From Caballeronia ptereochthonis (GTDB taxonomy: Bacteria > Pseudomonadota > Gammaproteobacteria > Burkholderiales > Burkholderiaceae), in contig NZ_FCOB02000007.1 of NCBI RefSeq assembly GCF_001545075.1, positions 62,001-126,000 of the forward strand: a DNA stretch of 64,000 bases. Reading direction: 5' to 3'. The translations under genes were made by a program, and so were the position numbers. Below, piece by piece: positions 7,974 to 50,168 of this stretch (the first letter of the stretch is position 1; every line of letters starts with the position of its first letter). The notes beneath the pieces were generated by a model. The model had not been told where the DNA came from and ran no database searches. It worked only from the letters and a program-made list of their open reading frames with translations.

Positions 7974-7984
7974 GGAGAGCCGCG

Positions 7985-33322: not shown

Positions 33323-34417
33323 CTATTTGAGCCTGGCGATGCTTCTCGCCGGGTCACGTTCCCGAAGCGCGCCTGCGTCGATCCGTGGGCGCTCGTGAAC
33401 CGCGGCTCCGATACTCGACTCCCTTACAACGAGTTCCGGCTCCGCGAAGTACTGCACCGGCGGTTTTGCATCGCCGTCCGTTTCATCGAGCCTTGCAAGC
33501 AGCGTCCGGCTCGCCATCGTGCCCAGCGTGTCCGCCCCCGCTGACAATGTCGTCAACGGAGGGTTGGTGTGTTCAGCGGCAACGACGTTGTCACATCCGA
33601 CGACAGCCAGCGCCTTGCCTGCACGCTTGCCCATCCGGTCGAGTTCGTGCAGCACGCCGAATGCAACCTGATCGTTATAGCAAACGACGGCCGTCGGCCG
33701 CGGCTTCATGTCGAAGATGGCGCGCACTGCATTCCGGCCCCCGGTCGGCGTCAGCTCCACATCGATGATCCACTCATCGCTGACGGGCAGTCCGTGCTTG
33801 TTCATGGCGGACAAGTAGCCCTGCCGGCGCTGGTTGGCCACGGTGTAGCCTTTTCTGTTTCCGGCAAACGCGATCCGCGTGTGACCCTGCCCGATCAGAT
33901 GCTCGGTCGCCAGCTCGAAGCCGTGCGCGTTATCGACACCGACCGTATCGACATCCGCGCCCATCGGACGCATGACGAGCACGAGCGGTATGCCCCACGA
34001 CCGGATCTCGACGGGCATATCGTCCGGCGTGCCCAGCGCGGGCGACATGATGAGCCCGGCGATGTTCTGCTCGCGCATCGAGCGCAGCACGCGCGTTTGC
34101 GTCTCGACGCTTTCCGCCGTATGCGCCATCAGCGTCGTAAAGCCCGACTGCGCGAGTACCCGCTCGATCGCCACCAGCAGCTCGACGAAGAACGGATTCG
34201 TCAGGTCGTTGATCACCATGCCGATCGTCGTGCTGCGTCGCCCACGCAGATTGGCGGCGCCACGGTTGTACACGTAGCCCAGCGCCCTCGCCGCTTCGCG
34301 CACCTTCTCGGCCGTCTCCGCCTTGATGCGCGGACTCTCCTGCAAGACGAGCGACACCGTCGACTTCGATACGCCGGCCGCGGCGGCGATGTCCTGAATG
34401 GTCGGACCAGATTTCAT
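33323..34417 (-). CDS. LacI family transcriptional regulator
   Basis: 364 residues with an N-terminal LacI HTH (TIQDIAAAAGVSKSTVSLVL) and hinge helix (YNRGAANLRGRRSTTIGMVI), then a type 1 periplasmic-binding effector domain (NDLTNPFFVELLVAIERVL, AGLIMSPALGTP, RIAFAGNRKGYTVANQRRQGY). Start ATG 34417 (MKSGPT) is preferred over 34462, since the longer version would place an operator palindrome inside the coding region. It is divergent from the 34.5-47.5 kb operon and should repress it until a sugar-like inducer binds. Confidence 0.92.
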   Translation of the reverse strand: MKSGPTIQDIAAAAGVSKSTVSLVLQESPRIKAETAEKVREAARALGYVYNRGAANLRGRRSTTIGMVINDLTNPFFVELLVAIERVLAQSGFTTLMAHTAESVETQTRVLRSMREQNIAGLIMSPALGTPDDMPVEIRSWGIPLVLVMRPMGADVDTVGVDNAHGFELATEHLIGQGHTRIAFAGNRKGYTVANQRRQGYLSAMNKHGLPVSDEWIIDVELTPTGGRNAVRAIFDMKPRPTAVVCYNDQVAFGVLHELDRMGKRAGKALAVVGCDNVVAAEHTNPPLTTLSAGADTLGTMASRTLLARLDETDGDAKPPVQYFAEPELVVRESSIGAAVHERPRIDAGALRERDPARSIARLK

Positions 34418-34431
34418 ATTGCTTTGCACAA

Positions 34432-34523
34432 TTGGAACGTTCCAAAAAGTGTTTGACAGCATGATTTGAGTCTACTACAGTTTGTTGGAACGATCCAACG
34501 CTTGAGAATTGGAACGTTCCAAT
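34432..34523. promoter_or_regulatory. divergent promoter with three LacI-type operators
   Basis: Three related palindromes are present: O1 TTGGAACGTTCCAA (34432-34445, perfect), O2 TTGGAACGATCCAA (34485-34498, two mismatched positions) and O3 ATTGGAACGTTCCAAT (34508-34523, perfect 16 bp). A plus-strand promoter, TTGACA (34453-34458) with a 17-bp spacer and TACAGT (34476-34481), lies between O1 and O2. O2 would cover the start site, O3 abuts the ribosome site of the first gene, and O1 lies just outside the lacI-type gene's start. Spacings from O1 are 53 and 77 bp centre to centre, which allows looping. Confidence 0.85.
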
Positions 34524-34533
34524 GGAGAGAGAC

Positions 34534-35553
34534 ATGACGGCAAACATTCGCTGGGCGCTGATCGGCGCCAGCACCATCGCCGACGAATGGATGGTCGACG
34601 CCATCCGGTCGCAAGCTGACGGCGAAATCGCCACGGTCGTCAGTGGCAGCGCGCAGCGTGCGCACGATTTCGCGAAAAAGCACGCCATAGCGGCGCACTC
34701 GACGGATCTCGACGCCGTGCTCGCGGACCCGTCCATCTCGGCTGTCTATATCAGCAGCACCAACGAAAAGCATCTGCCGCAGGCTCTTGCGGCAGCGAAG
34801 GCCGGCAAGCACGTGCTCTGCGAAAAGCCCCTCGCGCTGACCGGGAGCGAGGCCGCGCAAATGATCGAAACGTGCGCGTCGCACAAGGTCCGGCTCGGCA
34901 CGAATCACCATCTGCGCTGCGCGGCGACCCACCGCAAGATGCGTGATCTCATTCGCGCGGGCGCCGTCGGCAAGCCCCTCTTCGTGCGCATCTTTCATGC
35001 GGTCTCGCTGCCGCCGCATCTGCGCGGCTGGCGTATCGAGCGGCCCGATGCGGGCGGCGGAGTCATTCTCGACATCTCCGTTCACGACATCGACACGCTG
35101 CGCTTCCTGCTCGACGACGAACCGGTCGAAGTCAGCGCGATGACCTCGTCGGGAACGATGTCCGCCGCGGGCCTCGCCGATGGCGTGATGGCCATCGTGC
35201 GATTCAAGCGCGGCGTGCTCGCGCAGCTTCACGATGCGTTCACGGTGCCCTATGCGCCCACGGGACTCGAAGTTCACGGCACGTCCGGCTCGCTGTTCGC
35301 AAGGGACGTGATGACGCAACGTCCGATCGGCGAGATCACGCTGCGTACCGCAGACGGCACGCAAGACATCGAAGTCCGGCACCGCGACCTGTATTGCACC
35401 TCCGTCGCGCAATTTCATCGCTCCATTACCGACGGACAGAACCCGGCCGCGACGGGTATCGACGGCTATCGCTCGCTCGTCGCCGCGCTGTCCCTCGTGC
35501 AGTCCGCCGAAGCGGGCGGACACGTGACGGTGCCGTCCCGCTTCGCTGAATAA
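34534..35553 (+). CDS. Gfo/Idh/MocA family oxidoreductase (copy A)
   Basis: 339-residue NAD(P)-dependent sugar-type dehydrogenase. The N-terminal Rossmann domain begins IRWALIGASTIADEWM, followed by AVYISSTNEKH and the EKP motif (LCEKPLAL). The C-terminal domain carries GGGVILDISVHDIDTLRFLL, which holds the HxxD catalytic-type motif. This family oxidises cyclitols, glucosides and deoxysugars. ATG 34534 follows GGAGAGA; an ATG four codons earlier is not preceded by a ribosome site. First gene of the LacI-controlled operon, with a close paralogue at 47753-48769. Confidence 0.9.
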   Translation: MTANIRWALIGASTIADEWMVDAIRSQADGEIATVVSGSAQRAHDFAKKHAIAAHSTDLDAVLADPSISAVYISSTNEKHLPQALAAAKAGKHVLCEKPLALTGSEAAQMIETCASHKVRLGTNHHLRCAATHRKMRDLIRAGAVGKPLFVRIFHAVSLPPHLRGWRIERPDAGGGVILDISVHDIDTLRFLLDDEPVEVSAMTSSGTMSAAGLADGVMAIVRFKRGVLAQLHDAFTVPYAPTGLEVHGTSGSLFARDVMTQRPIGEITLRTADGTQDIEVRHRDLYCTSVAQFHRSITDGQNPAATGIDGYRSLVAALSLVQSAEAGGHVTVPSRFAE

Positions 35554-35572
35554 AAGTTCAAGGAGATTTGCC

Positions 35573-37165
35573 GTGCGTTCCAGCAAGGTTGTTTCATTGG
35601 CTCACGCAGCGAGCCTGATCGGCGATGACGACATCGTCACCGTGAGCTCGTCGAGCGGTCTCGGCTGCCCCGACGCGATGCTCGCCGCGATCGGCGCGCG
35701 CTTCGACGCCGAAGGTCATCCCCGCAATCTGACGATGCTGCATCCCATCGCTGCCGGCGACATGTACGGCATCAAGGGCATCGATCACATCGCGAAGAAA
35801 GGGCTGATTCAGACGGTCATCGCGGGCTCGTTCCCGAGCGGGCCGTCGAGCCTGCCGATGCCCGATATCTGGCATCTCGTCACCGACAACGCGATCCGCG
35901 CATATAACCTGCCGAGCGGCGTGCTGTTCGACATGCATCGCGAAGTCGCGGCGAAGCGCCCCGGCGTGCTGACCAAGGTGGGGCTCGATACCTATGTCGA
36001 CCCCGACCGCCAGGGCGGCGCGATGAACGCGCAGGCAGCCGAGCACCCGATCGTCGAGAAGGTCACGTTCGCGGGCGACGAATGGCTGTACTACAGGAAC
36101 TTCGTGCCGCGCGTCGCCATCGTGCGCGCGACCACCGCCGATGAACGCGGCAACCTGTCGTTCGAACATGAAGGCGCCCTGCTCGGCGGACGCGATCAGG
36201 CGCTTGCCGCGCACAACAACGGCGGCATCGTGATCGCGCAAGTGAAGCGTGTGGTCAAGGCGGGCTCCCTGCATACGCAACAGGTCCACATCCCGTGCAA
36301 TCTCGTCGATTACGTGGTGGTCGATCCCGAACAGAAGCAGACGACGCAGATCGAATACGACCCGGAAATCAGCGGTGAAGTGAAGCTGCCGGACAGCGCG
36401 TTCGCGTTCGCCGAATGGAACGCCGACAAGGTCATCGCGCGCCGGGCCGCAATGGAGCTTGCCCAAGACGATGCGGTGAATCTGGGCTTCGGCATCTCCG
36501 CGAATGTGCCGCGCATTCTGCTCGAAGAGGGCTATCGCGACGATGTGACGTGGGTGATCGAACAGGGCGCGGTGGGCGGCGTGCCGCTGCTGGGTTTTGC
36601 GTTCGGCTGCTCGGGCAATGCCGACGCGATCATGCCGTCGCCGTCGCAATTCGTGTACTTCCAGGGCGGCGGCTTCGACGTATCGCTGCTGTCGTTCCTG
36701 CAAGTGGACCGCTTCGGCAATGTGAACGTGTCGAAGCTGCCGAGCAAGCCTTATCTCACCGCCGGCTGCGGCGGCTTCATCGACATCACGACGCATGCGA
36801 AGCGGATCGTCTTCAGCGGCTATTTCACGGCGGGCGCGAAGATCGAAGTGGGCGACGGGCGTCTCAGGATCGTCAAGGAAGGCAAGAAGAAGTTCATCGC
36901 CGATGTCGATCATGTGACCTTCAGCGGCCGCATCGGACGGCGGCGCAATCAGGAAGCGCTGTACGTCACCGAGCGTTGCGTGATCCGCCTCAGCGATACC
37001 GGTCTCGAAGTGATCGAGATCGCGCCCGGCGTCGATCTGCAAAAGGACGTGCTCGATCAATGCGACATCGAGCTCGCCGTCTCCCCTGCCCTGAAGACGA
37101 TGGATGCGTCGATCTTTACGGACGCGCCGTTCGGCCTCCGTCTGAAGGAGGCCCGTCATGGCTGA
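35573..37165 (+). CDS. acyl-CoA:acetate/3-ketoacid CoA-transferase (family I, fused subunits)
   Basis: 530-residue YdiF/SCOT-like CoA-transferase with alpha and beta parts in one chain. The alpha part begins SSKVVSLAHAASLIGDDDIV; the beta part contains LGFGISANVPRILLEEGY and the catalytic Glu in VIEQGAVGGVPLLG, with the GGGGF-type pocket FQGGGFDVSLLSF. It would transfer CoA from an acyl-CoA to a carboxylic acid, without ATP. Located 19 nt after the Gfo/Idh gene; its end overlaps the next start by 8 nt. Its presence in a carbohydrate operon is unusual. Confidence 0.9.
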   Translation: MRSSKVVSLAHAASLIGDDDIVTVSSSSGLGCPDAMLAAIGARFDAEGHPRNLTMLHPIAAGDMYGIKGIDHIAKKGLIQTVIAGSFPSGPSSLPMPDIWHLVTDNAIRAYNLPSGVLFDMHREVAAKRPGVLTKVGLDTYVDPDRQGGAMNAQAAEHPIVEKVTFAGDEWLYYRNFVPRVAIVRATTADERGNLSFEHEGALLGGRDQALAAHNNGGIVIAQVKRVVKAGSLHTQQVHIPCNLVDYVVVDPEQKQTTQIEYDPEISGEVKLPDSAFAFAEWNADKVIARRAAMELAQDDAVNLGFGISANVPRILLEEGYRDDVTWVIEQGAVGGVPLLGFAFGCSGNADAIMPSPSQFVYFQGGGFDVSLLSFLQVDRFGNVNVSKLPSKPYLTAGCGGFIDITTHAKRIVFSGYFTAGAKIEVGDGRLRIVKEGKKKFIADVDHVTFSGRIGRRRNQEALYVTERCVIRLSDTGLEVIEIAPGVDLQKDVLDQCDIELAVSPALKTMDASIFTDAPFGLRLKEARHG

Positions 37166-37940
37166 TTCGCCGCTCATCCACATCGAGACGAAGAAGGCCG
37201 TCGCGATCGTCACGCTCGATCGCCCGGACAAGCTCAATGCGCTGACGCCGGAGATGCTCGAACAACTCGAAGCCGCCGCGTCACAAATCGAAGCGGATGC
37301 AGGCGTGCGCGCAGTCGTGCTGACGGGCGCGGGCGAACGCGCCTTCTGCGTCGGCGCGGATATCAACCAGTGGTCCGCGCTCGCGCCGCTCGACATGTGG
37401 CGCGTGTGGGTCACGCGCGGCCATCGCATCTTCGACCGCTGGGCTGCGTTACGCGTGCCTGTCGTCGCGGCGATCAACGGCCCGGCGTTCGGCGGCGGCC
37501 TCGAACTGGCCGCGGTTGCCGATGTGCGCGTCGCGGACCCCGCCGCCACCTTCGCGCTTCCCGAAGCCAGCATCGCGACCTGCCCGGGCTGGTCGGGCAC
37601 GCAGCGGCTGGTTTCGCTGATCGGCCCGAGCCACGTGAAGTCGCTCGCGCTCACGGGCAGGCGCATCGACGCGCAACGCGCGTACGGCATCGGACTGATC
37701 GATGAAATCTCCACGCCGAAAGCGTCACTCGCAGCCGCTGTCGCCATCGCTGAAAAGATCGCGACGCTCGCACCGGTCTCCGTGCAGTTGACGAAACAAC
37801 TGATCAACGCCGCTTCGGGATTCGGGGCTGGCGCAACCCTGGAAGCCATGGCAGGCGCGCTGTCCGCAACGACGCACGACGCGCGCGAAGGCATGGCGAG
37901 CTTCCGCGAACGGCGCCCGGCGCAATACGAGGGTCAATGA
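37158..37940 (+). CDS. enoyl-CoA hydratase/isomerase family protein
   Basis: 260-residue crotonase-fold protein. The first oxyanion loop is CVGADINQW near residue 65; the second is NGPAFGGGLELAAVADVRVA near 105-125. LPEASIATCPGWSGTQRLVS follows, where the canonical IPGAGGTQRL has become CPGWSGTQRL; the Glu of LPE is kept. Such proteins hydrate, isomerise or cleave acyl-CoAs. It overlaps the CoA-transferase by 8 nt and is probably its direct partner, acting on the newly formed CoA ester. Confidence 0.9.
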   Translation: MADSPLIHIETKKAVAIVTLDRPDKLNALTPEMLEQLEAAASQIEADAGVRAVVLTGAGERAFCVGADINQWSALAPLDMWRVWVTRGHRIFDRWAALRVPVVAAINGPAFGGGLELAAVADVRVADPAATFALPEASIATCPGWSGTQRLVSLIGPSHVKSLALTGRRIDAQRAYGIGLIDEISTPKASLAAAVAIAEKIATLAPVSVQLTKQLINAASGFGAGATLEAMAGALSATTHDAREGMASFRERRPAQYEGQ

Positions 37941-37941
37941 C

Positions 37942-39483
37942 ATGACGTACAAGACTGCAATTCCCGCTGCAACCGCGCTTCTGACACGCGATAACGCAAC
38001 GGATCATGAGGCCTTCAACGGCCGCATGTACATCAACGGCATGTGGGTCGAGTCCGCCGACGAGCGGCGCTTCGAGCGCCGCAGCCCCGCGCACGGGCAC
38101 GTCGTCAGCACGTTCCCGGAAGCCACGGCCGCTGATGTCGAACAGGCCATCGAGGCTGCCGACTTCGCCTTTCGGAACGGCCAGTGGCCGAAGCTCAAGG
38201 GCGCGGAGCGCGCGCGGATTCTGCTCGCCACAGCCGCTGGCATCGAGGCCCGCGTCGAGAAGATGTCGCTGCTCGAATCGCTCGAAACGGGCAAGCCGCT
38301 TGCTCAGGCGCGCGGCGAAGTGTCGGGCTGCGTCGATCTCTGGCAGTACGCGGCGAGCCTCGCGCGCACGACCAGCGGCGACGCCTACGACACGCTCGGC
38401 GAAGACATGCTCGGCATCGTGCTGCGTCAGCCGATCGGCGTGGTCGGCCTCATCACGCCCTGGAATTTCCCGCTGTGGATTCTCTCGCAGAAGCTGCCGT
38501 TCGCGCTCGCCGCGGGCTGTACCTGCGTGGTCAAGCCAAGCGAACTGACGTCGAGCACGACCGTCATGCTGATGGAGATTCTCGAGGAAGCCGGCGTGCC
38601 TGCTGGCGTCGTCAATGTGGTGACGGGGAAAGGCCCGTCCGTCGGCCAGCCGCTCGCGGAGCACGACGCCATCGACATGCTGTCGTTCACGGGCTCGACC
38701 CGCGTCGGCAGCCTGCTCGGCGGACTCGCGTCGAAGAAGCTGAAGAAGGTCGCGCTCGAACTCGGCGGCAAGAACCCGCAGATCGTTTTCCCCGATTGCG
38801 ACTGGGACGCGATGATCGACGCCGTCGTGTTCGGCGTGTATTTCAACGCCGGCGAGTGCTGCAACAGCGGCAGCCGCGTGCTGGTGCACGAATCGATCGC
38901 GGAGCGATTTGCTCAGGCTGTTGTCGAGCGCGCACGGCAGGTGCCCGTTGGCGACCCGCTGCACCCCGATTGCAAGATCGGCGCGGTCGTCAGCGAGAAC
39001 CAACTGGGCGAGATTCTCGGCAACATCGAGAAAGGCGTTGCCGCGGGGGCGCGGCTGCGTCTGGGCGGCAAGCGTTACGACGCGCAAGGCCTCTATCTCG
39101 AACCGACCATCATCAGCGACGTCAGGCCCGACATGAGCATCGCGCGCGATGAAATCTTCGGCCCCGTGCTCGCGATCATCCCCTTCTCCGATGCGCGGCA
39201 AGCAATCGAGATCGCCAACGACACGGCCTACGGACTGTCCGCCGCCGTCTGGAGCAACGACATCAACACGTGCTTGAGCGTCGCGCGCGGCGTCGACGCG
39301 GGAACCGTGTGGGTCAACACCTTTCTCGACGGCTATCCGGAACTGCCGTTCGGCGGTTTCAAGTCGAGCGGCGTCGGACGCGAGCTCGGCAAGCAGGCCG
39401 TCGAGGACTACACCGAAACGAAAACGATCCAGCTTCATATCGGGGAGCGCAGGAACTGGTGGTTGCCGCGCCCCGCGGCCTGA
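37942..39483 (+). CDS. NAD(P)-dependent aldehyde dehydrogenase (betaine-aldehyde-DH-like)
   Basis: 513-residue ALDH with complete catalytic equipment: TPWNFPLW with the conserved Asn (~173), KPSELTSST, FTGSTRVGSLL, Glu in ALELGGKNPQIV and the Cys pair in FNAGECCNSGSRV. The C-terminal signature is LPFGGFKSSGVGRELGKQA. It begins 1 nt after the hydratase stop. Closest in style to BetB/aminobutyraldehyde dehydrogenases. With the GMC oxidoreductase in the same operon it could carry an alcohol through its aldehyde to an acid. Confidence 0.92.
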   Translation: MTYKTAIPAATALLTRDNATDHEAFNGRMYINGMWVESADERRFERRSPAHGHVVSTFPEATAADVEQAIEAADFAFRNGQWPKLKGAERARILLATAAGIEARVEKMSLLESLETGKPLAQARGEVSGCVDLWQYAASLARTTSGDAYDTLGEDMLGIVLRQPIGVVGLITPWNFPLWILSQKLPFALAAGCTCVVKPSELTSSTTVMLMEILEEAGVPAGVVNVVTGKGPSVGQPLAEHDAIDMLSFTGSTRVGSLLGGLASKKLKKVALELGGKNPQIVFPDCDWDAMIDAVVFGVYFNAGECCNSGSRVLVHESIAERFAQAVVERARQVPVGDPLHPDCKIGAVVSENQLGEILGNIEKGVAAGARLRLGGKRYDAQGLYLEPTIISDVRPDMSIARDEIFGPVLAIIPFSDARQAIEIANDTAYGLSAAVWSNDINTCLSVARGVDAGTVWVNTFLDGYPELPFGGFKSSGVGRELGKQAVEDYTETKTIQLHIGERRNWWLPRPAA

Positions 39484-39573
39484 TCACGAAGCGCCCCAAG
39501 CCACGTCACGGCATATCCGCCGTGCAGTCCACCAGAAAGCCCGTCAAGAGAGCGTTTCATCATGGAGACAGAG

Positions 39574-40830
39574 ATGTTCAAGAAGCGTATTGCCGCAATC
39601 ACAGTGGGTCTCGTTGCCTGCCACGCGATGTCCGCGATCGCCGCCGCCAGCAAGCAGGTGGAAGTCATGCACTGGTGGACTTCCGGCGGTGAAGCCAAGG
39701 CCCTCACCGTTCTCAAGGACGGCCTGAAAACCAAGGGCTACGCATGGAAGGACAGCCCTATCGCGGGCGGCGGCGGCGAGGCTGCGCGCACGGTGCTGAA
39801 GGCGCGCGTCGCATCGGGCAACCCGCCGGATGCGATCCAGATGCTCGGCTTCACGATCCCCGAGTATGCGCAGGAAGACTATCTGCAAAGCCTCGATGCC
39901 GTCGCATCGAAGGAAGGCTGGGACAAGCTCGTGCCCGCGCCGATCCAGAAGTTCTCAAAAGTCGACGGACACTGGGTTGCCGCGCCCGTCGACGTGCATC
40001 GCACCAACTGGATCTGGGCGAACAAGAAGATCTTCGACGAGCTGAAGCTCACGCCGCCAAGGACTTTCGATGAACTCGTCGCCGATGCCGACAAGATCCG
40101 CAAGGCCGGCTATATTCCGCTCGCACACGGCGGCCAGGCATGGCAGGAAGCGACCATCTTCGATAGCGCCGTGATGTCCGCGGGCGGCCCGAAGTTCTAC
40201 CAGCAGGCGCTCGTCAAGCTCGACCCGGGCGCGCTCGGCTCGAAGACGATGGAAAAGGCCTTCGACCAGATGCGCGCGCTGCGCGGCATGGTCGATCCCA
40301 ACTTCCCTGGCCGTGACTGGAACCTCGCCACGTCGATGGTGATCAGCGGCAAGGCTGCGATGCAGATCATGGGCGACTGGGCGAAGGGCGAGTTCGCATC
40401 GGCAGGCAAGCAGCCGAATACCGACTATCTGTGCTTCCAGTATCCGGGCACGGAAGGCGCGTTCATCTTCAACACGGATCAGTTCGCCACCTTCAAGAAG
40501 GGTGACGCCAGCCTGCCGGGTGAATACGCGTTCGCATCGACCATCATGGACCGTGGCGTGCAGGCCAAATTCAACCAGATCAAAGGCTCGATCCCCGCGC
40601 GGCTCGACGTGCCGCAGGACGGCTTCGACGAATGCGGCAAGAAGTCGATGAACGACATGCGCGCCGCGCTCAAGACCGATTCGATGGTCGGCAGCTTCGC
40701 GCACGGACACGCGATGCCGGATGGTCCGAAGAACGCGGTCTATGACGTCGTCACGCACTTCTTCAATTCGAACCAGTCGTCGGCGGACGCCGTGAAGGCG
40801 CTCGTCGCGGCCGTGAAGAACGCGCAGTAA
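39574..40830 (+). CDS. carbohydrate ABC transporter substrate-binding protein
   Basis: 418-residue family 1 extracellular solute-binding protein. The Sec signal peptide is MFKKRIAAITVGLVACHAMS with cleavage near AIAA. The mature protein begins with KQVEVMHWWTSGGEAKAL, the typical sugar-binding N-lobe of the glucose/mannose-type (GtsA/GlcE-like) proteobacterial proteins; ALGSKTMEKAFDQMRALRGM is in the hinge region. ATG 39574 follows GGAGACAGAG; an ATG four codons upstream lacks a site. It delivers the substrate to the permeases encoded next. Confidence 0.92.
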   Translation: MFKKRIAAITVGLVACHAMSAIAAASKQVEVMHWWTSGGEAKALTVLKDGLKTKGYAWKDSPIAGGGGEAARTVLKARVASGNPPDAIQMLGFTIPEYAQEDYLQSLDAVASKEGWDKLVPAPIQKFSKVDGHWVAAPVDVHRTNWIWANKKIFDELKLTPPRTFDELVADADKIRKAGYIPLAHGGQAWQEATIFDSAVMSAGGPKFYQQALVKLDPGALGSKTMEKAFDQMRALRGMVDPNFPGRDWNLATSMVISGKAAMQIMGDWAKGEFASAGKQPNTDYLCFQYPGTEGAFIFNTDQFATFKKGDASLPGEYAFASTIMDRGVQAKFNQIKGSIPARLDVPQDGFDECGKKSMNDMRAALKTDSMVGSFAHGHAMPDGPKNAVYDVVTHFFNSNQSSADAVKALVAAVKNAQ

Positions 40831-40908
40831 GCCAACTGGCCCTCGTGCGGAGCGGCACAAGAACGCCGCTCTCCGCGAGGTCCGTCATCTCCGACGGTAG
40901 GTGTTGCC

Positions 40909-41883
40909 ATGCTCTTGCACAATCGCGCCCAAGCGGCGCCCACGCTCGAAGATCTGAAGAACGGCTCGGGCCAGCGTCCGGCGAACAAGCGATCGACGCT
41001 GCGCAATCGCTTCGAAGCCATCCTGCCGAAGCTCGTCCTCAGCCCGACGTTGATCATCACGCTGATCTTCGTGTACGGATTCATCGTGTGGACCACGCTG
41101 CTTTCGTTCACGCGTTCACGCGCTTTCGCCAACTTCCACTGGGCCGGCCTCCTTCAATATGGCCGCGTGTGGGAACATCCGCGCTGGCATGTGGCGATCG
41201 GCAATCTCGGCATTTATGCGTCGCTTTACGTCGTGCTCTGCATGGCGATCGGCCTCGGCCTCGCGATCCTGCTGGATCAGCGCATTCGCGCCGAAGGCGG
41301 ATTGCGCGCGCTCTTTCTCTATCCGATGGCGCTCTCGTTCATCGTCACCGGTACGGCGTGGAAATGGATCCTCAATCCCGGTCTCGGCCTGACCAAGCTG
41401 TTCCATGACTGGGGATGGACGAGCTTCCAGTTCGACTGGATCATCAACGACGACATGGCCATCTACACCGTCGTCATCGCCGCCGTGTGGCAGGCCTCGG
41501 GCTTCGTGATGGCGATGTTTCTCGCCGGTCTGCGCGGCATCGATCAGGAACAGGTCAAGGCTGCTTCCATCGACGGCGCGCGCATGCCGGCGATCTATCG
41601 CCGCATCATCATTCCGCAGCTGCGGCCCGTGTTCGTCTCCGCGTTCGTGATTCTCGTGCATCTGGCCGTCAAGAGCTATGAGCTCGTCATCGCGTTGACG
41701 GGCGCGGGTCCCGGCTACTCGACCGAGCTGCCGTCGACCTTCATGTACTCGTTCACGTTCACCCGCAACGAGCTCGGCATGGGCGCGGCGAGCGCGGTGA
41801 TGATGCTGTGCACCGTGGCGGCCATCATGGTGCCCTATCTCTATTCCGAAATGCGACCGCGCCGCAAGAGCGCCGGCCACTGA
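40909..41883 (+). CDS. carbohydrate ABC transporter permease (MalF type)
   Basis: 324 residues with six predicted helices, starting KLVLSPTLIITLIFVYGFIV. The EAA coupling loop is EQVKAASIDGARMPAIYRRI, ending with IIIPQLRP. The N-terminal cytoplasmic stretch of ~40 residues is normal for this branch. It lies 78 nt after the binding protein and pairs with the next permease. Confidence 0.92.
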   Translation: MLLHNRAQAAPTLEDLKNGSGQRPANKRSTLRNRFEAILPKLVLSPTLIITLIFVYGFIVWTTLLSFTRSRAFANFHWAGLLQYGRVWEHPRWHVAIGNLGIYASLYVVLCMAIGLGLAILLDQRIRAEGGLRALFLYPMALSFIVTGTAWKWILNPGLGLTKLFHDWGWTSFQFDWIINDDMAIYTVVIAAVWQASGFVMAMFLAGLRGIDQEQVKAASIDGARMPAIYRRIIIPQLRPVFVSAFVILVHLAVKSYELVIALTGAGPGYSTELPSTFMYSFTFTRNELGMGAASAVMMLCTVAAIMVPYLYSEMRPRRKSAGH

Positions 41884-41912
41884 TTCCCCCTATAGCCTCT
41901 CAGGAGACAACG

Positions 41913-42806
41913 ATGGCTACCAAGACATGGGACTCGCCACAGATGGTGGTGGGCAAGCACAACTACGTCTCGCGAATCGTCATCTATTCGCTGCTGGCGA
42001 TCGCAGCCGTGGTCTATCTCGTGCCGCTGCTCGTGATGTTGCTGACTTCGTTCAAGCCGCTTCCCGAAGTGTATTCGGGCAACATCCTCGCGCTGCCGCA
42101 TCAGTGGACGATTGCCGCGTGGGAGAAAGCATGGGGCACGGCCTGCGTGGGACTCGACTGCTCGGGCGTCAAGGGCTTCTTCTGGAATTCATTCCGGATG
42201 GTCTTCGCGGCGGTGGCGGTTTCCACGCTGCTCGGCGCACTGAACGGCTACGTGCTGACCAAGTGGCGCTTCAAGGGCGATAACCTGCTCTTCGGCCTGA
42301 TCCTGTTCGGATGCTTCATCCCGTTCCAGATCGTGCTGATTCCAATGGCGTCGTTTCTCGGCAAGATCGGCCTCGCGCAATCGATCACCGGTCTCGTGTT
42401 CGTGCATGTGGTCTACGGCCTGTGCTTCACGACGCTCTACTTCCGCAACTATTACATCGCGTTTCCGGATGAGCTGGTGAAAGCCGCGATGATCGACGGT
42501 GCGCGCTTCTTTCGCATCTTCTTCCGCATCCTGCTTCCCAACTCGGTGCCGATCATCACGGTGACCGTGATCTGGCAGTTCACGAATATCTGGAACGACT
42601 TCCTGTTCGGCGCTTCGTTCACGACGGGCAGCTCCGCGCCGATCACCGTCGCGCTGAACAACATCGTGAATACGTCGACGGGCGTCAAGGAATACAACGT
42701 CCACATGGCGACGGCCATGATCGCCGCCCTGCCGACGCTGTTCGTCTATATCGTGGGTGGTCGTTATTTCGTTCGCGGTCTGATGGCCGGCTCGGTCAAG
42801 GGGTAA
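41913..42806 (+). CDS. carbohydrate ABC transporter permease (MalG type)
   Basis: 297-residue second permease: SLLAIAAVVYLVPLLVMLLT as TM1 and the EAA loop DELVKAAMIDGARFFRIFFR followed by ILLPNSVPIIT. The C-terminus (GRYFVRGLMAGSVKG) is the family's signature ending. The ATG at 41913 follows AGGAGAC and excludes an unrelated leader in the longer open frame. Forms the heterodimeric channel with the preceding gene product. Confidence 0.93.
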   Translation: MATKTWDSPQMVVGKHNYVSRIVIYSLLAIAAVVYLVPLLVMLLTSFKPLPEVYSGNILALPHQWTIAAWEKAWGTACVGLDCSGVKGFFWNSFRMVFAAVAVSTLLGALNGYVLTKWRFKGDNLLFGLILFGCFIPFQIVLIPMASFLGKIGLAQSITGLVFVHVVYGLCFTTLYFRNYYIAFPDELVKAAMIDGARFFRIFFRILLPNSVPIITVTVIWQFTNIWNDFLFGASFTTGSSAPITVALNNIVNTSTGVKEYNVHMATAMIAALPTLFVYIVGGRYFVRGLMAGSVKG

Positions 42807-42809
42807 ATC

Positions 42810-43916
42810 ATGTCTTCTCTGCACGTATCCAAGGTTCGCAAGGCCTACGGCTCCACTGAAATCCTCAAGGAGATCGACATCGATGTCGACGACGGCGATT
42901 TCCTCGTCCTCGTCGGACCCTCGGGTTGCGGAAAGTCGACGCTGCTTTCGCTGATCGCGGGACTCGACACGCTCTCGGGCGGTGAAATCCGCATCGGCAA
43001 CGACAAGGTCAACGACCTGCATCCGAGCGAGCGCGACATCGCGATGGTGTTCCAGAGCTACGCGCTGTATCCGAACATGACCGTCGGGCAGAACATCAGC
43101 TTCGGTCTGGAAATGCGCAAGATCTCGAAGGGCGAGCGCGAAAAGGCCGTGCAGGATGCCGCGCGCCTGCTGCAGATCGAACATCTGCTCGACCGCCGTC
43201 CGGGCCAGCTTTCGGGCGGTCAGCGTCAGCGCGTCGCGATGGGCCGCGCGCTCGTGCGTCATCCGAAGATCTTTCTGTTCGACGAGCCGCTGTCGAATCT
43301 GGATGCGAAACTGCGCGTCGATATGCGCACCGAGATCAAGAAACTGCATCAGCGCCTCGGCGCGACCATCGTCTATGTCACGCACGACCAGATCGAAGCG
43401 ATGACGCTCGCAACGCGCATCGCCGTGATGAAAGGCGGCGTGCTGCAACAGCTCGGCACGCCCGCCGAGGTCTACAACACGCCGGCGAATACCTTCGTCG
43501 CGACCTTCATGGGCTCGCCGTCGATGAACCTGATTCCCGCGCGCATCGAGCGTGCGAACGGCTCGCTTCAGATTCACGTTGGCGAAGGCCATGGCGCAAT
43601 CGCGCTCGATCTGCCGCCGCAAAGTGCGGCCGTCGATCGCTACATCGGCAAGAAGGTGATCGCTGGTCTGCGCCCCGAGGCGATCGGCGTCGAGAACGAG
43701 CGCGCCGCCGCGGCGCTGCGCACGGTGCCCGTGACGATCAACGTGCTCGAGCCGACAGGCCCCGACACGCTCGCCGTGCTCGATTTCGGCGGCATGGAAG
43801 TATCCGCGCGACTGGGCGCCGACATGCCGCATGCGTCGGGCGAGCGATGCGAGTTGCGCGTCGATCTGTCGAAGCTCGTGCTGTTCGATGCCGATACGGA
43901 ACTCCGGATTTACTGA
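42810..43916 (+). CDS. carbohydrate ABC transporter ATPase (UgpC/MsmK/MalK type)
   Basis: 368 residues: Walker [10 protein letters not shown] (~37-45), Q-loop [16 protein letters not shown], signature [17 protein letters not shown], Walker [17 protein letters not shown]-loop [13 protein letters not shown]-terminal TOBE/regulatory domain (~240-368) is present, with GLRPEAIGV. It begins 3 nt after the MalG-type permease, so the importer genes are complete: binding protein, two permeases, ATPase. Confidence 0.95.
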
Positions 43917-43947
43917 AGCGCGCAGCGCATTGAACGATGGTGCAGCC

Positions 43948-44727
43948 ATGAACAAGTCAGAGGGTAAGTTTTCAAGCGCGCTGGTGACGGGCGCCCGGCG
44001 CGGTATCGGCAGATCGATCTGCGTGGCGCTGGCGCGGCGCGGCTTCGATATCGTGCTGACGGATGTCGTGCACGACGAAGACGCGGATACGACCTGTGCG
44101 CTGGTGCGCGACGAAGGCCAGGACGCACTGTTCATACGGAGCGATCTGAGCGATGTCGAGTCGCACGGGCGTGTCGTCGATGAAGCCGTGCGCTTCAAAG
44201 GCAGTATCGAATGTCTCGTGAACAACGCGGGCATCGGCTCGCCCAGCCGGGGCGATCTGCTGGACGTGTCGCCGCAGGCGTTCGATGCCGTGCTGGGTGT
44301 CAACCTGCGCGGCACGTTCTTCATGACGCAGGCCGTCGCGCGCCATATGGCCTCGGCGACGTCGGGCGTTGCGCGCTCGATCGTCACGGTGTCGTCCGTA
44401 TCGGCGGAAATGGCCTCGCCCGAGCGCGCCGAATACTGCCTGTCTAAATCCGCACTGCCGATGATGACGCGGCTCTTCGCGCTGCGGCTCGCGAGCGCCA
44501 ACGTCGGCGTATTCGAAGTGCGGCCCGGCATCATCCGCACGCCGATGACGGCCGGCGTCGCGCAGAAGTACGAAGCGCGTTTCCGCGAAGGCCTCGTGCC
44601 CGCGGGACGCTGGGGCGAAAGCGACGAAGTTGGCCAGGCCGTCGCGACACTCGCCGACGGCTCGCTGCCCTTCGCGACGGGCAGCGTCGTGAACGTGGAT
44701 GGCGGCCTGTCCATCCCTGCCTTCTGA
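43948..44727 (+). CDS. SDR oxidoreductase, FabG-like 3-ketoacyl reductase family
   Basis: 259-residue short-chain dehydrogenase with coenzyme loop TGARRGIGRSICVALARRG, NNAG near residue 91, catalytic Ser in TVSSVSAEMAS and Tyr-x3-Lys in EYCLSKSAL. It ends PFATGSVVNVDGGLSIPAF. Annotations as 3-ketoacyl-ACP reductase are common for this type but the context is sugar or polyol catabolism. ATG 43948 gives a normal N-terminus 31 nt after the ATPase gene. Confidence 0.87.
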   Translation: MNKSEGKFSSALVTGARRGIGRSICVALARRGFDIVLTDVVHDEDADTTCALVRDEGQDALFIRSDLSDVESHGRVVDEAVRFKGSIECLVNNAGIGSPSRGDLLDVSPQAFDAVLGVNLRGTFFMTQAVARHMASATSGVARSIVTVSSVSAEMASPERAEYCLSKSALPMMTRLFALRLASANVGVFEVRPGIIRTPMTAGVAQKYEARFREGLVPAGRWGESDEVGQAVATLADGSLPFATGSVVNVDGGLSIPAF

Positions 44728-44737
44728 ACCGACTGAC

Positions 44738-46462
44738 ATGAATACGACGACATACGACTATGTGATCGTGGGTGGCGGCTCGGCGGGGTGCGTGCTCGCC
44801 AACCGCCTGAGCGCCGATCCTTCGATCAGGGTGCTTCTGCTCGAAGCAGGCGGCTCCGATCGGCATCCGTTCTTTTCGATGCCGGCGGGCTTCGCGAAGA
44901 TGACGCGCGGCATCGGTTCGTGGGGCTGGTTCACCGTGCCGCAAAAGCATCTCAACAATCGCGTGCTGCGCTTCACGCAAGCGAAGGTGATCGGCGGCGG
45001 CTCGTCCATCAACGCGCAGATCTACACACGTGGTGTCCCGGCAGACTACGACGACTGGGAACAGAAAGCCGGCGCCACGGGCTGGTCTTATCGCGATGTG
45101 CTGCCGTACTTCAGGAAGTCGGAGAACAACCAGCGCTTCGCCAATGAGTATCACAGCTATGGCGGGCCGCTCGGCGTGTCGAACCCGATCAGTCCCTTGC
45201 CGATCTGCGAGGCATTTTTTCAGGCAGGACAGGAGCTGGGTATTCCGTTCAATCCCGACTTCAATGGCGCAAGCCAGGAAGGTCTGGGCTATTACCAGCT
45301 CACGCAGCTGAATGCGCGCCGCTCGTCCGCCGCTGCCGGCTTTATTCGCCCGGTCCTCGGGCGGCCCAACCTGACCGTGTGGATGCAGGCGCGCACGCTT
45401 CGCGTGATCGTCGAAGGCGGCCGCGCAACGGGCGTCGAATACGTGTCCGGCGACAGCCGCGACCCGAAGATCGTGCGTGCGGCGCGGGAAGTGATCGTAG
45501 CGTCGGGGGCGATCGGCTCACCGAAGCTGTTGATGCAGTCGGGCATCGGTCCCGCCGACCACCTCGAGTCCGTCGGCATCGAGCCGGTGCATCATCTTCG
45601 AGGCATCGGCTCGAATCTGCAGGACCATCTCGATCTGTTCGTCATCGCGGAATGCACGGGCGATCACACCTACGACAAGTACAACAAGCTGCACAACGCC
45701 GCGTGGGCCGGGCTGCAATATCTGTTGCTGAAGAAAGGGCCGGTCGCGTCGAGCCTCTTCGAAACGGGCGGCTTCTGGTATGCGGACGGCGACAGGCGCG
45801 ACCGTTCGCCCGATATCCAGTTTCATCTCGGCCTCGGCTCCGGTATCGAGGCAGGCATGGCGAAGCTGAAGAACGCGGGTGTCACGCTGAACACAGCGTA
45901 CCTTCGCCCGCGCTCGCGCGGCACGGTTCGGCTTTCGAGCAGGGACCCAGCCGCCCCGCCGTTGCTCGACCCCAACTACTGGGCCGATCCGCACGATCGC
46001 GACATGGCGATCAAAGGCTTGCGGCTCGCGCGCGACATCATGCGCGCGCCCGCGTTGAAGCGCTACGTGCAAAGCGAGATCCTGCCGGGCCCGGGCGCGA
46101 ACACCGAGCAGGCGTTGTTCGACTACGCCTGCGCGAATGCGAAGACCGATCACCATCCCGTCGGGACGTGCCGCATGGGAGGGCCCGACGACCCGGACAG
46201 CGTCGTCACGCCGGACCTGCGTGTGATCGGGCTCGACGGCCTGCGCGTCGTCGACGCGTCCGTCATGCCTTATCTGCCCTCGTGCAACACCAATGCTCCG
46301 ACGATCATGGTCGCCGAAAAAGCCGCCGACATGATCGTTCAATCCCAGACATCGAGAGGAATCCGTGAAGATCAATCTGCCGACCAAGGAAGGTTCAATC
46401 CAGCCGTACGCGATGCAGCAGCGCAGCGACCGGCGGCCGCCCCCTACCGCGCCGACGTTTGA
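44738..46462 (+). CDS. GMC family FAD oxidoreductase (choline/alcohol dehydrogenase-like)
   Basis: 574-residue flavoprotein with the FAD motif VIVGGGSAGCVLANRL at residues ~9-24, the GMC signature 1 region VIGGGSSINAQIYTRG (~86), signature 2 GAIGSPKLLMQSGIGP and the catalytic His region DHHPVGTCRMGGPDDP. The protein normally ends near NTNAPTIMVAEKAADMIVQ. Here about 38 more residues of low-complexity character run on and overlap the next gene by 98 nt. It probably oxidises a primary or secondary alcohol and passes electrons to quinones or oxygen. Confidence 0.92.
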   Translation: MNTTTYDYVIVGGGSAGCVLANRLSADPSIRVLLLEAGGSDRHPFFSMPAGFAKMTRGIGSWGWFTVPQKHLNNRVLRFTQAKVIGGGSSINAQIYTRGVPADYDDWEQKAGATGWSYRDVLPYFRKSENNQRFANEYHSYGGPLGVSNPISPLPICEAFFQAGQELGIPFNPDFNGASQEGLGYYQLTQLNARRSSAAAGFIRPVLGRPNLTVWMQARTLRVIVEGGRATGVEYVSGDSRDPKIVRAAREVIVASGAIGSPKLLMQSGIGPADHLESVGIEPVHHLRGIGSNLQDHLDLFVIAECTGDHTYDKYNKLHNAAWAGLQYLLLKKGPVASSLFETGGFWYADGDRRDRSPDIQFHLGLGSGIEAGMAKLKNAGVTLNTAYLRPRSRGTVRLSSRDPAAPPLLDPNYWADPHDRDMAIKGLRLARDIMRAPALKRYVQSEILPGPGANTEQALFDYACANAKTDHHPVGTCRMGGPDDPDSVVTPDLRVIGLDGLRVVDASVMPYLPSCNTNAPTIMVAEKAADMIVQSQTSRGIREDQSADQGRFNPAVRDAAAQRPAAAPYRADV

Positions 46463-47543
46463 TCGCATCGCCTATGCGGCGGCGCATGTCGTCGTCGATC
46501 CTTCCCATGCCTATGAGCCCTGGAGCGATGCGCCGCGCGTCGACTGGGACGCCACACTCGAATTCCGCAGCTATCTGTACGGCCTCGGCTTCAAGGTGGC
46601 CGAGGCGATGGACACGGCGCAACGTGGCATGGGCATCGGCTGGACCACGGCAGCAGAGCTGATCCGCCGCAGTATCGCGCATGCGCGCGGCATCCCCGGC
46701 GCGGATCTCGCGTGCGGCGCGGGCACGGATCATCTCGATGGCGGCCGCACGCATACGCTTGCCGACATCATCGATGCGTACGCGGTGCAGTTCGAGGTGG
46801 TCGAATCGGCGGGTGGCCGGCCGATCATGATGGCGAGCCGCGCGCTCTGCGCCACGGCGCAGTCCGCCGACGACTATCAGCGCGTCTATGACGCCGTGAT
46901 CTCCGCCTCGCGCAACAAGGTCGTGCTGCACTGGCTCGGCGATGCATTCGACGCATCGCTCGCGGGTTACTGGGGCAGCCGCGATGTATCGACTGCGATG
47001 ACGACCGTCCTCGACATCATCGCGTGTCATCAAAACAAGATCGAAGGCATCAAGATTTCCCTTCTCAACGCGGACTACGAGCGCGAGCTCAGGTCGCGAC
47101 TTCCCGAAGGCGTCTTGATGTTCACGGGCGACGATTACAACTACGGCGAACTCATTGCCGGAGACGGCACGGGACATTCGCATGCGTTGCTCGGCATCTT
47201 CGACCCGATCGCGCCCGTCGCATCGGCCGCGCTCACGAAGCTCGCTGAAGGCGATCTCGACGGCTATCGCCATTTGATCGACCCGACTGTCGCCCTGTCG
47301 CGCGAATTGTTCGCGGCGCCGACGCAGTACTACAAGGCGGGCGTCGTGTTTCTCGCATGGCTCAACGGTCACCAACGCCACTTCTCGATGGCGGGAGGCA
47401 TGCAGTCGGCGCGATCAGCCGTGCATTACGCGGAGGTATTCAGGAAGGCCGACGTGGCGGGCGTTCTTGTCAGGCCCGAGTTGGCCCATCAGCGCATGAG
47501 TCAATTTCTCGCCTTGAATGCCGGTATCGACAACGGACTATGA
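46365..47543 (+). CDS. DUF993 family protein (dihydrodipicolinate-synthase-like aldolase fold)
   Basis: 392 residues, start GTG 46365 behind GAGAGGAATCC. The N-terminus MKINLPTKEGSIQPYAM and the RIAYAAAHVVVDP and VAEAMDTAQRGMGIGW blocks are typical of DUF993 (PF06187) proteins, a TIM-barrel group related to DHDPS/NAL aldolases. A candidate Schiff-base lysine is in KIEGIKISLLN, near residue 231. It overlaps the GMC gene by 98 nt in another frame. DUF993 has no settled function; a retro-aldol role late in the pathway is plausible. Confidence 0.85.
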   Translation: MKINLPTKEGSIQPYAMQQRSDRRPPPTAPTFDRIAYAAAHVVVDPSHAYEPWSDAPRVDWDATLEFRSYLYGLGFKVAEAMDTAQRGMGIGWTTAAELIRRSIAHARGIPGADLACGAGTDHLDGGRTHTLADIIDAYAVQFEVVESAGGRPIMMASRALCATAQSADDYQRVYDAVISASRNKVVLHWLGDAFDASLAGYWGSRDVSTAMTTVLDIIACHQNKIEGIKISLLNADYERELRSRLPEGVLMFTGDDYNYGELIAGDGTGHSHALLGIFDPIAPVASAALTKLAEGDLDGYRHLIDPTVALSRELFAAPTQYYKAGVVFLAWLNGHQRHFSMAGGMQSARSAVHYAEVFRKADVAGVLVRPELAHQRMSQFLALNAGIDNGL

Positions 47544-48769: not shown

Positions 48770-48826
48770 GCCTCTTCTCCCTTCAGTTTCGATTGATCAC
48801 GACGTAGCAGCTCTCTGGTGGTCGGA

Positions 48827-50074: not shown

Positions 50075-50168
50075 AGCGTGTCTCCAGATGTTTTCGAGTG
50101 CCTACAGCTTAGACGCGAGCGCGCTGTCGTTGCGATACAATCGAGACAATCTCTTTGCACTTTCGGTC

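Follow-up and report, generated by a model that had tools for sequence, protein, structure and literature searches.

A candidate LacI-repressed operon for 1,5-anhydrosugar catabolism in Caballeronia ptereochthonis

A co-directional operon of the soil bacterium Caballeronia ptereochthonis, lying on the + strand at positions 34,432 to 47,543 of the window (the 64,000-nucleotide stretch of DNA analyzed here), may well encode a LacI-repressed system for the import and aerobic breakdown of 1,5-anhydro-D-fructose (AF), 1,5-anhydromannitol (AM), and probably 1,5-anhydroglucitol (AG); we hold this reading at about even weight. The assignment to AF and the anhydrohexitols is made because its first gene product, GfoA, matches 1,5-anhydro-D-fructose reductase (AFR) and because the Sinorhizobium meliloti operon that encodes a solved AFR is syntenic. 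The substrate class is the likelier part of the proposal, and we consider it reasonably probable; the exact route is doubtful, its later steps being conjectural.

Gene content, regulation, and conservation of the operon

Open reading frames and a profile scan recovered, in one co-directional run, every gene named in the preliminary description of this region (Table 1), and with them the mixture of sugar import and CoA-ester chemistry that it had remarked on. The profile families include PF01144, PF00378, PF00171, PF01547, PF00732/PF05199, and PF06187 (566 bits), whereas LacI, the permeases, and the ATPase were named by similarity to annotated genes of syntenic loci without a profile scan. Intergenic gaps range between -98 and +78 bases. 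For GfoA, a start at 34,534 is the most probable, given the overlap of the ATG at 34,522 with an operator; the start of the divergent LacI gene was corrected to 34,417. The window operon itself yielded no glycerate kinase, a point against the reading proposed here.

Table 1. Features of the operon and its neighbors (window positions)
Feature	Positions	Strand	Basis
LacI-family repressor, divergent	33323..34417	-	ORF 33323-34462, start reset to MKSGP at 34417; similarity
Operator TTGGAACGTTCCAA, perfect palindrome, beside LacI start	34432..34445	.	Motif search
Operator copy TTGGAACGATCCAA, one mismatch	34485..34498	.	Motif search
Operator TTGGAACGTTCCAA, immediately before GfoA	34509..34522	.	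Motif search; recurs in syntenic loci
GfoA, 1,5-anhydro-D-fructose reductase homologue	34534..35553	+	PDB matches 4koa, 2glx
Family I CoA-transferase, YdiF type, catalytic Glu330	35573..37165	+	PF01144; PDB 2ahu YdiF
Crotonase-fold enoyl-CoA hydratase/dehydratase, Glu116 and Glu136	37158..37940	+	PF00378
Aldehyde dehydrogenase (ALDH)	37942..39483	+	PF00171, 570 bits
ABC importer sugar-binding protein, glucose-like class, family 1	39562..40830	+	PF01547; PDB 4r2b
ABC permease 1	40909..41883	+	ORF; similar to annotated sugar ABC permeases, loci L087-L090 and L092
ABC permease 2	41913..42806	+	ORF, start adjusted; similar to annotated carbohydrate ABC permeases
ABC ATPase	42810..43916	+	ORF; similar to annotated ABC ATPases in syntenic loci
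SDR oxidoreductase, PRK12745 family	43948..44727	+	NCBIfam NF009386
GMC flavoprotein alcohol oxidoreductase; 98-base 3' overlap with DUF993	44738..46462	+	PF00732/PF05199
DUF993 protein, proposed class I aldolase, Lys230	46365..47543	+	PF06187, 566 bits
GfoB, second AFR homologue, separate convergent unit	47753..48769	-	Similarity to GfoA and S. meliloti AFR
Gig2-like (DUF1479/YbiU family), possible Fe/2-oxoglutarate dioxygenase; auxiliary, membership uncertain	48827..50074	-	PF07350, 479 bits
AraC-family regulator paired with Gig2-like gene	49992..51104	+	Family name by reading; start is that of the longest ORF, overlaps Gig2

The catalytic residues that we checked in the operon enzymes are intact. 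The transferase has both the PF01144 match and the catalytic Glu of family I CoA-transferases, and Glu330 is kept in 47/47 homologues at no less than 36% identity. Glu116 and Glu136 of the crotonase-fold protein both occur in 48/48 homologues (at least 40% identity), and the ALDH carries its Cys and Glu motifs. The SDR, which falls in the 3-ketoacyl reductase group by profile scan, scores 343.9 bits against NF009386 (cut-off, 250) and retains Ser-Tyr-Lys in all 37 homologues of at least 50% identity. The GMC protein is choline-dehydrogenase-like, yet it scores under the curated cut-offs.

Three operators were seen in the window, against 0.09 expected. The sequence TTGGAACGTTCCAA is common to this locus and the S. 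meliloti AFR locus, and no further copy with one mismatch or fewer exists in the window's genome. The LacI protein is 80 to 92% identical to those at the equivalent position in Burkholderia-group loci and 43% identical to the LacI of the S. meliloti AFR locus. The operator is present in 18 of the 20 upstream stretches examined, and also in S. meliloti, Rhizobium, Microvirga, Falsochrobactrum, and Peteryoungia loci. A wider locus set yielded 21 loci with matches, among which L043, L073, and L076 look like strays; shuffled sequences predict about two stray matches in that set. Two loci combine LacI with GfoA (L239) or with an AFR homologue (L055) and have no operator within two mismatches, which counts against the proposed reading; L245 has neither LacI nor operator. 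Taken together, the sequences indicate one LacI-repressed regulon with an operator dedicated to the operon, and the earlier proposal of a single LacI-controlled operon is upheld.

The convergent unit downstream was rejected as a part of this regulon, since no LacI operator was found near GfoB-Gig2-AraC. GfoB is 70% identical to GfoA and 56% identical to S. meliloti AFR. The Gig2-like protein matches PhyH weakly (20.8 bits, below the cut-off of 22), and an AraC homologue adjoins Gig2 in 38/40 Burkholderiaceae loci.

The operon is conserved across alpha-, beta-, and gammaproteobacteria. Locus maps were built from tblastn because simple gene calling performed poorly on some high-GC loci. They show that the gene order is no product of chance, for it recurs in Burkholderia-group, Rhizobiales, Variovorax, Leeia, and Motiliproteus loci. 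The Pseudomonas and Acinetobacter versions keep the order with no ABC importer directly in the cluster, an absence that weighs against the proposed reading. A synteny search had been put forward as one check on the preliminary description, and the gene set is indeed co-conserved in other genomes. The S. meliloti AFR operon contains the same CoA-transferase, crotonase, ALDH, importer, SDR, GMC, and DUF993 genes and ends in a glycerate kinase gene. Glycerate kinase lies near 17/88 DUF993 loci, a count that excludes matches below 36% identity (L060 and L085) and includes near relatives, versus 0/40 Gig2 control loci (P = 0.0014), which are 40 of the Gig2 places listed and are shorter, mostly 13 kb versus 21 kb.

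AFR homologues and the likely substrate

The best PDB matches of GfoA are 4koa (393 bits) and 2glx (372 bits), followed by the next best at 116 bits, which places it clearly nearer to AFR than to the remaining solved Gfo/Idh enzymes. The S. meliloti AFR gene product is identical to 4koa at 332/333 positions. The Lys of CEKP and the His of VHD, the catalytic residues of AFR, are retained in GfoA and GfoB and in 31/31 homologues at 44% identity or more. GfoA is a putative NADPH-dependent reductase of AF to AM; its identity to the AFR proteins is only 54% (S. meliloti AFR included), which counts against the AF assignment. Two other assignments were rejected: an inositol pathway (IolG, 160.2 bits; equivalog cut-off, 355) and levoglucosan dehydrogenase (95 bits; cut-off, 650).

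The locus of Sinorhizobium AFR (2glx and 4koa) has the same operon genes, LacI, and operator, and GfoA and GfoB are 54 to 56% identical to the S. meliloti reductase. In gene content and operator, the window operon is a counterpart of an operon whose reductase is already known, a substrate clue that the preliminary description overlooked. It had listed anhydrosugars among its candidate substrates, in keeping with the class that AFR suggests. Its claim of a novel pathway stands in part: no described pathway was found among the matches listed, but the AFR of the syntenic operon has already been characterized and solved, which indicates the substrate class. The publications on the Sinorhizobium locus cover the reductase and a proposed C1 oxygenation of AM, and we found none in which the CoA-transferase, crotonase, or DUF993 protein is given a function.

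AFR and DUF993 also travel together. Of 200 family genomes, six encode AFR, and all six are among the 30 with DUF993 (P = 7e-6). In those six, the two genes share contig and strand, 11.8 to 13.6 kb apart from start to start. Three of the 30, namely, G491, G547, and G559, carry no more than DUF993 fragments or a weak, interrupted match. A class-wide sample, unused for synteny, had DUF993 in 2/369 genomes, one being the window's own.

The same operon logic could serve another substrate, such as a 2-keto-sugar, a cyclitol, or a glycoside fragment, with AF a mere surrogate for AFR. AFR also reduces osones, and Kuehn et al. (2006) reportedly found activity on other 2-keto-sugars. The sugar-binding protein is of a glucose-binding class: it matches PDB 4r2b with 496 bits, a structure reportedly solved with bound glucose and 85 to 89% identical to three rhizobial cluster proteins. 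Moreover, many Actinobacterial loci, mainly of Microbacteriaceae, pair DUF993 with other Gfo proteins (24 to 29% matches) and an AP_endonuc_2-type TIM barrel, with no CoA genes in the flanks examined, which implies that the DUF993 core serves several substrates. Against this alternative, the operator serves this operon alone, and AFR homologues of at least 44% identity occur, in the genomes searched, in those with this cluster type. AFR is present in 28 of the 31 genomes searched behind DUF993 loci of the window-operon type (the other three gave no AFR match, and one genome, G589, has a second AFR far away from DUF993; L012 and L044 were left out of the search). We regard another substrate as unlikely, though deserving of weight. 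Expression data speak for the AF reading: SMc04396, by gene count the binding protein of the S. meliloti importer, is reported to be dextrin induced (PMC4960864), and AF is described as a product of alpha-glucan lyases acting on alpha-glucans (PMC12441222), but the induction could also stem from other sugars in dextrin.

Predicted route and proposed role of DUF993

In the route that we tentatively favor, the ABC importer would bring the anhydrosugar into the cell, GfoA would reduce AF to AM, and the GMC protein and ALDH would oxidize C6 to the carboxylate. The CoA-transferase and crotonase would then act as a CaiB/CaiD-like pair: in carnitine metabolism, CaiB and CaiD dehydrate a 3-hydroxy acid via a transient CoA ester. 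Here the C4 hydroxyl, being beta to the thioester, would be lost. The operon differs in using a family I (YdiF-type) transferase and in its proposed substrate, a sugar acid. Rehydration, a step with no enzyme assigned to it, would open the enol-ether ring to give 2-keto-3-deoxygluconate (KDG). With Lys230 forming a Schiff base, DUF993 would cleave KDG to pyruvate and D-glyceraldehyde; the latter would pass via glycerate and glycerate kinase into glycolysis. The SDR may oxidize AG to AF, a role that is not firm. Stereochemical reasoning suggests that AM would yield D-erythro-KDG, the normal Entner-Doudoroff isomer, and AG another isomer, a difference that would account for the manno configuration of the AFR product. 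The order given in the preliminary description, namely, oxidation, CoA activation, elimination or hydration, and aldol cleavage, is still the best reading.

The aldolase role is suggested by the DUF993 residues. Lys230, His189, Asp256, and Asp257 are invariant in 87/87 homologues. In an alignment with DapA (E = 0.27, with weak whole-profile similarity), Lys230 falls on the Gly-Ile-Lys motif, whose Lys forms the Schiff base, and the GDD motif of the DapA/NAL class I aldolases is also present. In contrast to those enzymes, the Tyr of the DapA YxVP motif is absent, and an invariant LHWLG appears, by reading, to put His189 there. Because this His apparently replaces the catalytic Tyr, we call DUF993 DapA-like and stop short of counting it among the known DapA-family enzymes. 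PDB 4dnh is a solved relative, and no paper found by our literature search names DUF993. Three more CoA-transferase/DUF993 loci occur in the window's genome.

A rather improbable alternative borrows the logic of deoxyribonate oxidation: DUF993 would be a beta-keto-acid cleavage enzyme or a thiolase substitute, the SDR would make a 3-ketoacyl-CoA, and the CoA-transferase would free glycerate from glyceryl-CoA at the end, not activate the substrate. The 3-ketoacyl reductase grouping of the SDR agrees with this, and the published text describes a Klebsiella deoxyribonate cluster with a CoA-transferase and glycerate kinase, for which glyceryl-CoA was proposed (PMC6365646). As presented there, the oxidative deoxyribonate pathways also turn a sugar acid into CoA esters and end in glycerate kinase, but they rely on BKACE or thiolase cleavage and MFS transporters, and the passages available mention neither AFR nor DUF993 (PMC6365646). 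No thiolase or BKACE-type family was found among the operon proteins scanned, on which ground such pathways were rejected. DUF993 retains the DapA-like Lys and GDD motif, and by our reasoning a six-carbon anhydrosugar acid so cut would give C2 and C4 fragments, not glycerate.

For AM, the published fate differs from our route: C1 is oxidized to yield mannose, in an account that names no oxygenase (PMC12441222). If this applies, AM made by AFR would be oxygenated at C1, in Burkholderia perhaps by the Gig2-like protein, and the CoA genes would serve another linked substrate; we give this a slim chance. Gig2-like adjoins GfoB in the window; of the 15 genomes in the 31-genome set that encode it, 8 have it no more than 16 kb from AFR. 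Its E. coli relative ybiU adjoins ybiV-ybiW-ybiY, where YbiW is stated to act on anhydroglucitol phosphate (PMC12441222). Yet none of the 40 Gig2 loci examined has AFR at 44% identity or above, and GfoB-Gig2 has no LacI operator. Neither the window operon proteins scanned nor the annotation of the S. meliloti operon includes an oxygenase for the step. Gig2-like was rejected as the missing oxygenase in rhizobia on the absence of a PF07350 match from five Rhizobiales genomes that carry DUF993 loci of this type and, in four cases, AFR as well, in a search that also left 14 well-known control genomes matchless, though K-12 YbiU scores 515 bits. The anaerobic AG/AM pathway, with a PTS and the glycyl radical enzymes YbiW or PflD, shares the proposed substrates (PMC12441222); it differs in its phosphorylated substrates and oxygen-sensitive radical enzyme, and such families are absent from the operon proteins scanned. 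An ordinary fatty or aromatic acid acyl-CoA operon that merely neighbors a sugar importer is very unlikely, close to negligible: beta-oxidation commonly involves the CoA-transferase, crotonase, and SDR families, but the synteny of importer, AFR, and CoA genes behind a single operator extends from Caballeronia to Rhizobium.

Among the matches listed, judged by titles, abstract openings, and passages, no paper assigns these operon genes. The boldest reading, less likely than not, is an unrecognized aerobic AG/AM/AF pathway in which the CoA-transferase and crotonase would dehydrate a sugar acid as its CoA ester and DUF993 would represent a new aldolase family yielding pyruvate and glyceraldehyde; the three further CoA-transferase/DUF993 loci of this genome and the Actinobacterial DUF993 loci would then encode related pathways for other rare sugars. 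If so, DUF993 would gain a function, CoA thioesters would be seen to dehydrate a sugar acid, and a gap would be filled in how oxygen-breathing bacteria consume AF and its alcohols, a question of catabolism that the operon makes testable in one tractable bacterium.

Gene content of the operon and its probable link to anhydrofructose

The preliminary description had proposed a LacI-controlled operon that joins a sugar importer to CoA-ester chemistry. Open reading frames and family profile scans bore out this gene set, with 11 closely spaced genes encoding, in order, GfoA, a CoA-transferase, a crotonase, an aldehyde dehydrogenase (ALDH), a sugar-binding protein, two permeases, an ATPase, an SDR, a GMC oxidoreductase, and DUF993 (PF06187, a proposed class I aldolase). 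Intergenic gaps range from -98 to +78 bases, and a LacI-family gene is divergent from the operon. GMC and DUF993 share 98 bases, the end of the one reading frame lying within the start of the other; the last residues of GMC may be a late extension.

Coordinates of the features discussed
Feature	Positions	Strand
Operon, 11 genes	34432-47543	+
GfoA	34534-35553	+
Sugar-binding protein	39562-40830	+
GMC-DUF993 overlap	46365-46462	+
GfoB-Gig2-like-AraC unit	47753-51104	
GfoB	47753-48769	-
GfoB-Gig2-like gap	48770-48826	
Gig2-like gene (DUF1479)	48827-50074	-

Among solved structures, GfoA matches best the Sinorhizobium 1,5-anhydro-D-fructose reductases (AFR) 4koa (393 bits) and 2glx (372 bits), the next scoring 116 bits. 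In the Sinorhizobium meliloti record CP090106, a Gfo gene is identical to 4koa at 332 of 333 positions and close to 2glx; GfoA is 54% identical to this AFR, and GfoB, the second homologue in the window, is 56% identical. Conserved synteny with the importer, which had been proposed as the check on this operon, was confirmed in other genomes. The S. meliloti locus reads LacI, AFR, CoA-transferase, crotonase, ALDH, binding protein, two permeases, ATPase, GMC, SDR, GMC, and glycerate kinase, with DUF993 divergent from the operon; it has the same genes as the window plus the second GMC and the glycerate kinase. The record of this locus (L092) is called pSymB; this label is probably wrong, since its 3.72 Mb is roughly the size of the chromosome and it carries a locus elsewhere given chromosomal (SMc) names. 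The likely substrate class of the operon is 1,5-anhydrofructose (AF), 1,5-anhydromannitol (AM), and 1,5-anhydroglucitol (AG).

Among 200 genomes of the family, including the 7.7-Mb genome containing the window, DUF993 occurs in 30 (in three as fragments or a weak interrupted match only) and AFR-level matches (E value of 1e-60 or better) occur in 6. All six also carry DUF993 (P = 7e-6), and in each the two genes share a contig and strand, 11.8 to 13.6 kb apart from start to start. Elsewhere, 28 of the 31 genomes searched behind such DUF993 loci have an AFR match, a count made without an AFR-DUF993 distance criterion and excluding loci L012 and L044; the match was absent from the genomes of L023, L041, and L085. 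One genome (G589) has an additional AFR far from DUF993. The genomes of loci L009, L016, and L019 have a single AFR match, at the place of GfoB, and there LacI and its operators lie immediately before the CoA-transferase (L231, L240, and L241). The downstream, GfoB-type copy is the sole AFR kept in some Burkholderia-group genomes.

A shared LacI operator

The motif TTGGAACGTTCCAA is present three times in the LacI-GfoA gap, twice perfectly and once with a mismatch. At up to two mismatches the window holds three matches versus 0.09 expected, and at up to one mismatch the whole genome has only these three places. It recurs in 18 of 20 upstream stretches of related genomes, adjoining LacI or the first operon gene, and was not found in the other two (L239 and L245). 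It lies upstream of AFR in a Peteryoungia locus and in the LacI-DUF993 gap in S. meliloti, Rhizobium, Microvirga, and Falsochrobactrum loci; through this shared divergent operator, DUF993 would belong to the regulon in rhizobia. A wider scan matched 21 of 119 loci, of which three are apparently strays. Among the 98 without a match are loci ending before LacI, other DUF993 locus types, 4-kb loci, and E. coli, as well as L055, where both LacI and an AFR homologue are present. We read operator, LacI, and operon as one dedicated, conserved regulon. The main text of a LacI regulon survey (PMC4052901), as far as available, does not contain "anhydro"; its supplement or RegPrecise may include this regulon among those for unknown sugars.

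Enzymes, importer, and a proposed route

Catalytic residues, assigned from general family knowledge, are intact in the aligned operon enzymes. Counting loci over an identity limit, with some genomes entered twice via overlapping loci, we found conservation of CoA-transferase Glu330 (47/47), crotonase Glu116 and Glu136 (48/48), the SDR Ser-Tyr-Lys (37/37), AFR Lys and His (31/31), GMC His473 (36/36, with His472 replaced by Tyr in 6), and DUF993 Lys230, His189, Asp256, and Asp257 (87/87). A DUF993 profile search retrieved 4dnh, the structure of a relative to which no function is assigned; DapA enzymes came next, at an E value no better than 0.27. In the aligned part of that match the invariant Lys pairs with the DapA Gly-Ile-Lys, and we read the invariant LHWLG as standing at the place of the DapA catalytic Tyr motif. 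Glycerate kinase (at least 36% identity) lies near 17 of 88 DUF993 rows, the window's own left out, versus 0 of 40 control loci, which were shorter (Fisher P = 0.0014).

As a concrete hypothesis, AF would be reduced to AM, which GMC and ALDH would oxidize to a C6 acid. The CoA-transferase would turn this acid into a thioester, whose acidic C5 hydrogen would allow the crotonase to expel the C4 hydroxyl; water added at C5 of the enol ether would then open the ring to give 2-keto-3-deoxygluconate, a step to which the scheme assigns no enzyme. DUF993 would split this product into pyruvate and D-glyceraldehyde, the latter passing through oxidation and then glycerate kinase. In our hand-worked stereochemistry, AM would lead to the D-erythro isomer (Entner-Doudoroff type) and AG to the L-threo isomer, which would account for a manno-specific reductase. 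The SDR could, at a guess, oxidize AG to AF.

The closest solved relative of the window's binding protein is 4r2b (55% identity), reportedly solved with glucose and 85 to 89% identical to three rhizobial cluster proteins. Among 37 cluster-type entries, position 95 (numbering of the window protein) is Leu in 36 and Met in 1, whereas all 24 related glucose-type proteins (40 to 49% identity) carry Lys there, some genes being entered twice via overlapping loci; many of the 24 adjoin Gig2-like genes. In Pseudomonas binding proteins this Lys is a contact to glucose; position 95 is a possible specificity switch. The Pseudomonas and Acinetobacter versions (L025 to L027) have no ABC importer within the cluster. 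We take AFR to be SMc04400; by gene count from it and from LacI SMc04401, SMc04396 would be the S. meliloti cluster binding protein. In the portions available of each source, SMc04401 is listed as a chromosomal regulator (PMC4560400), smc04396 is dextrin induced (PMC4960864), and alpha-glucan lyases convert such glucans to AF (PMC12441222).

Related loci and significance

In Actinobacteria, mainly Microbacteriaceae, the neighbours of DUF993 are LacI, a distantly related Gfo, and a TIM barrel of the AP_endonuc_2 type, with no CoA-transferase in the flanks fetched; a third arrangement has a CoA-transferase, an acyl-CoA dehydrogenase, and the same type of TIM barrel. The window's genome has three further DUF993 genes (L005, L006, and L007), each near its own family I CoA-transferase, only 40 to 42% identical to the window's, and by our reading with different importers; these are probably sister pathways. 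The pattern fits DUF993 as a cleavage step shared by pathways that start from different substrates. In a tree, the window's DUF993 falls with Burkholderia-group proteins of the same cluster type. A DUF993 protein (43%) is also encoded at 7134-8276 of MT835659.1, a human fecal record named Bacteriophage sp.; a bacterial origin of this DNA is likelier than a phage origin.

The convergent second unit comprises GfoB, the Gig2-like gene, and AraC. The E. coli gene ybiU, of the same Pfam family as the Gig2-like gene (PF07350), adjoins ybiV-ybiW-ybiY, and YbiW acts on anhydroglucitol-6-phosphate according to the portion available of PMC12441222. By analogy, DUF1479 may act aerobically as an oxygenase of anhydrohexitols. 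Of 40 Burkholderiaceae loci, 13 have the Gig2-like gene close to a glucose-type binding protein; in the three inspected (L155, L158, and L164) the next gene is aldo/keto reductase-like, which would fit production of an aldose by the Gig2-like protein. In Caballeronia calidae (L009), a second GMC gene sits between GfoB and the Gig2-like gene, where the window has only 57 bases.

Our literature search found no mention of DUF993 or SMc04400, and the titles, abstract beginnings, and passages among the matches listed held no pathway or gene assignment. As described in the accessible part of PMC12441222, anaerobic AG and AM degradation runs through glycyl radical enzymes, an aerobic Rhizobiaceae route leads from AF via AM to mannose with its oxygenase unidentified, and an analogous oxidative AG pathway is stated as not described. 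Through this operon, that stated gap becomes a few ordinary experiments.
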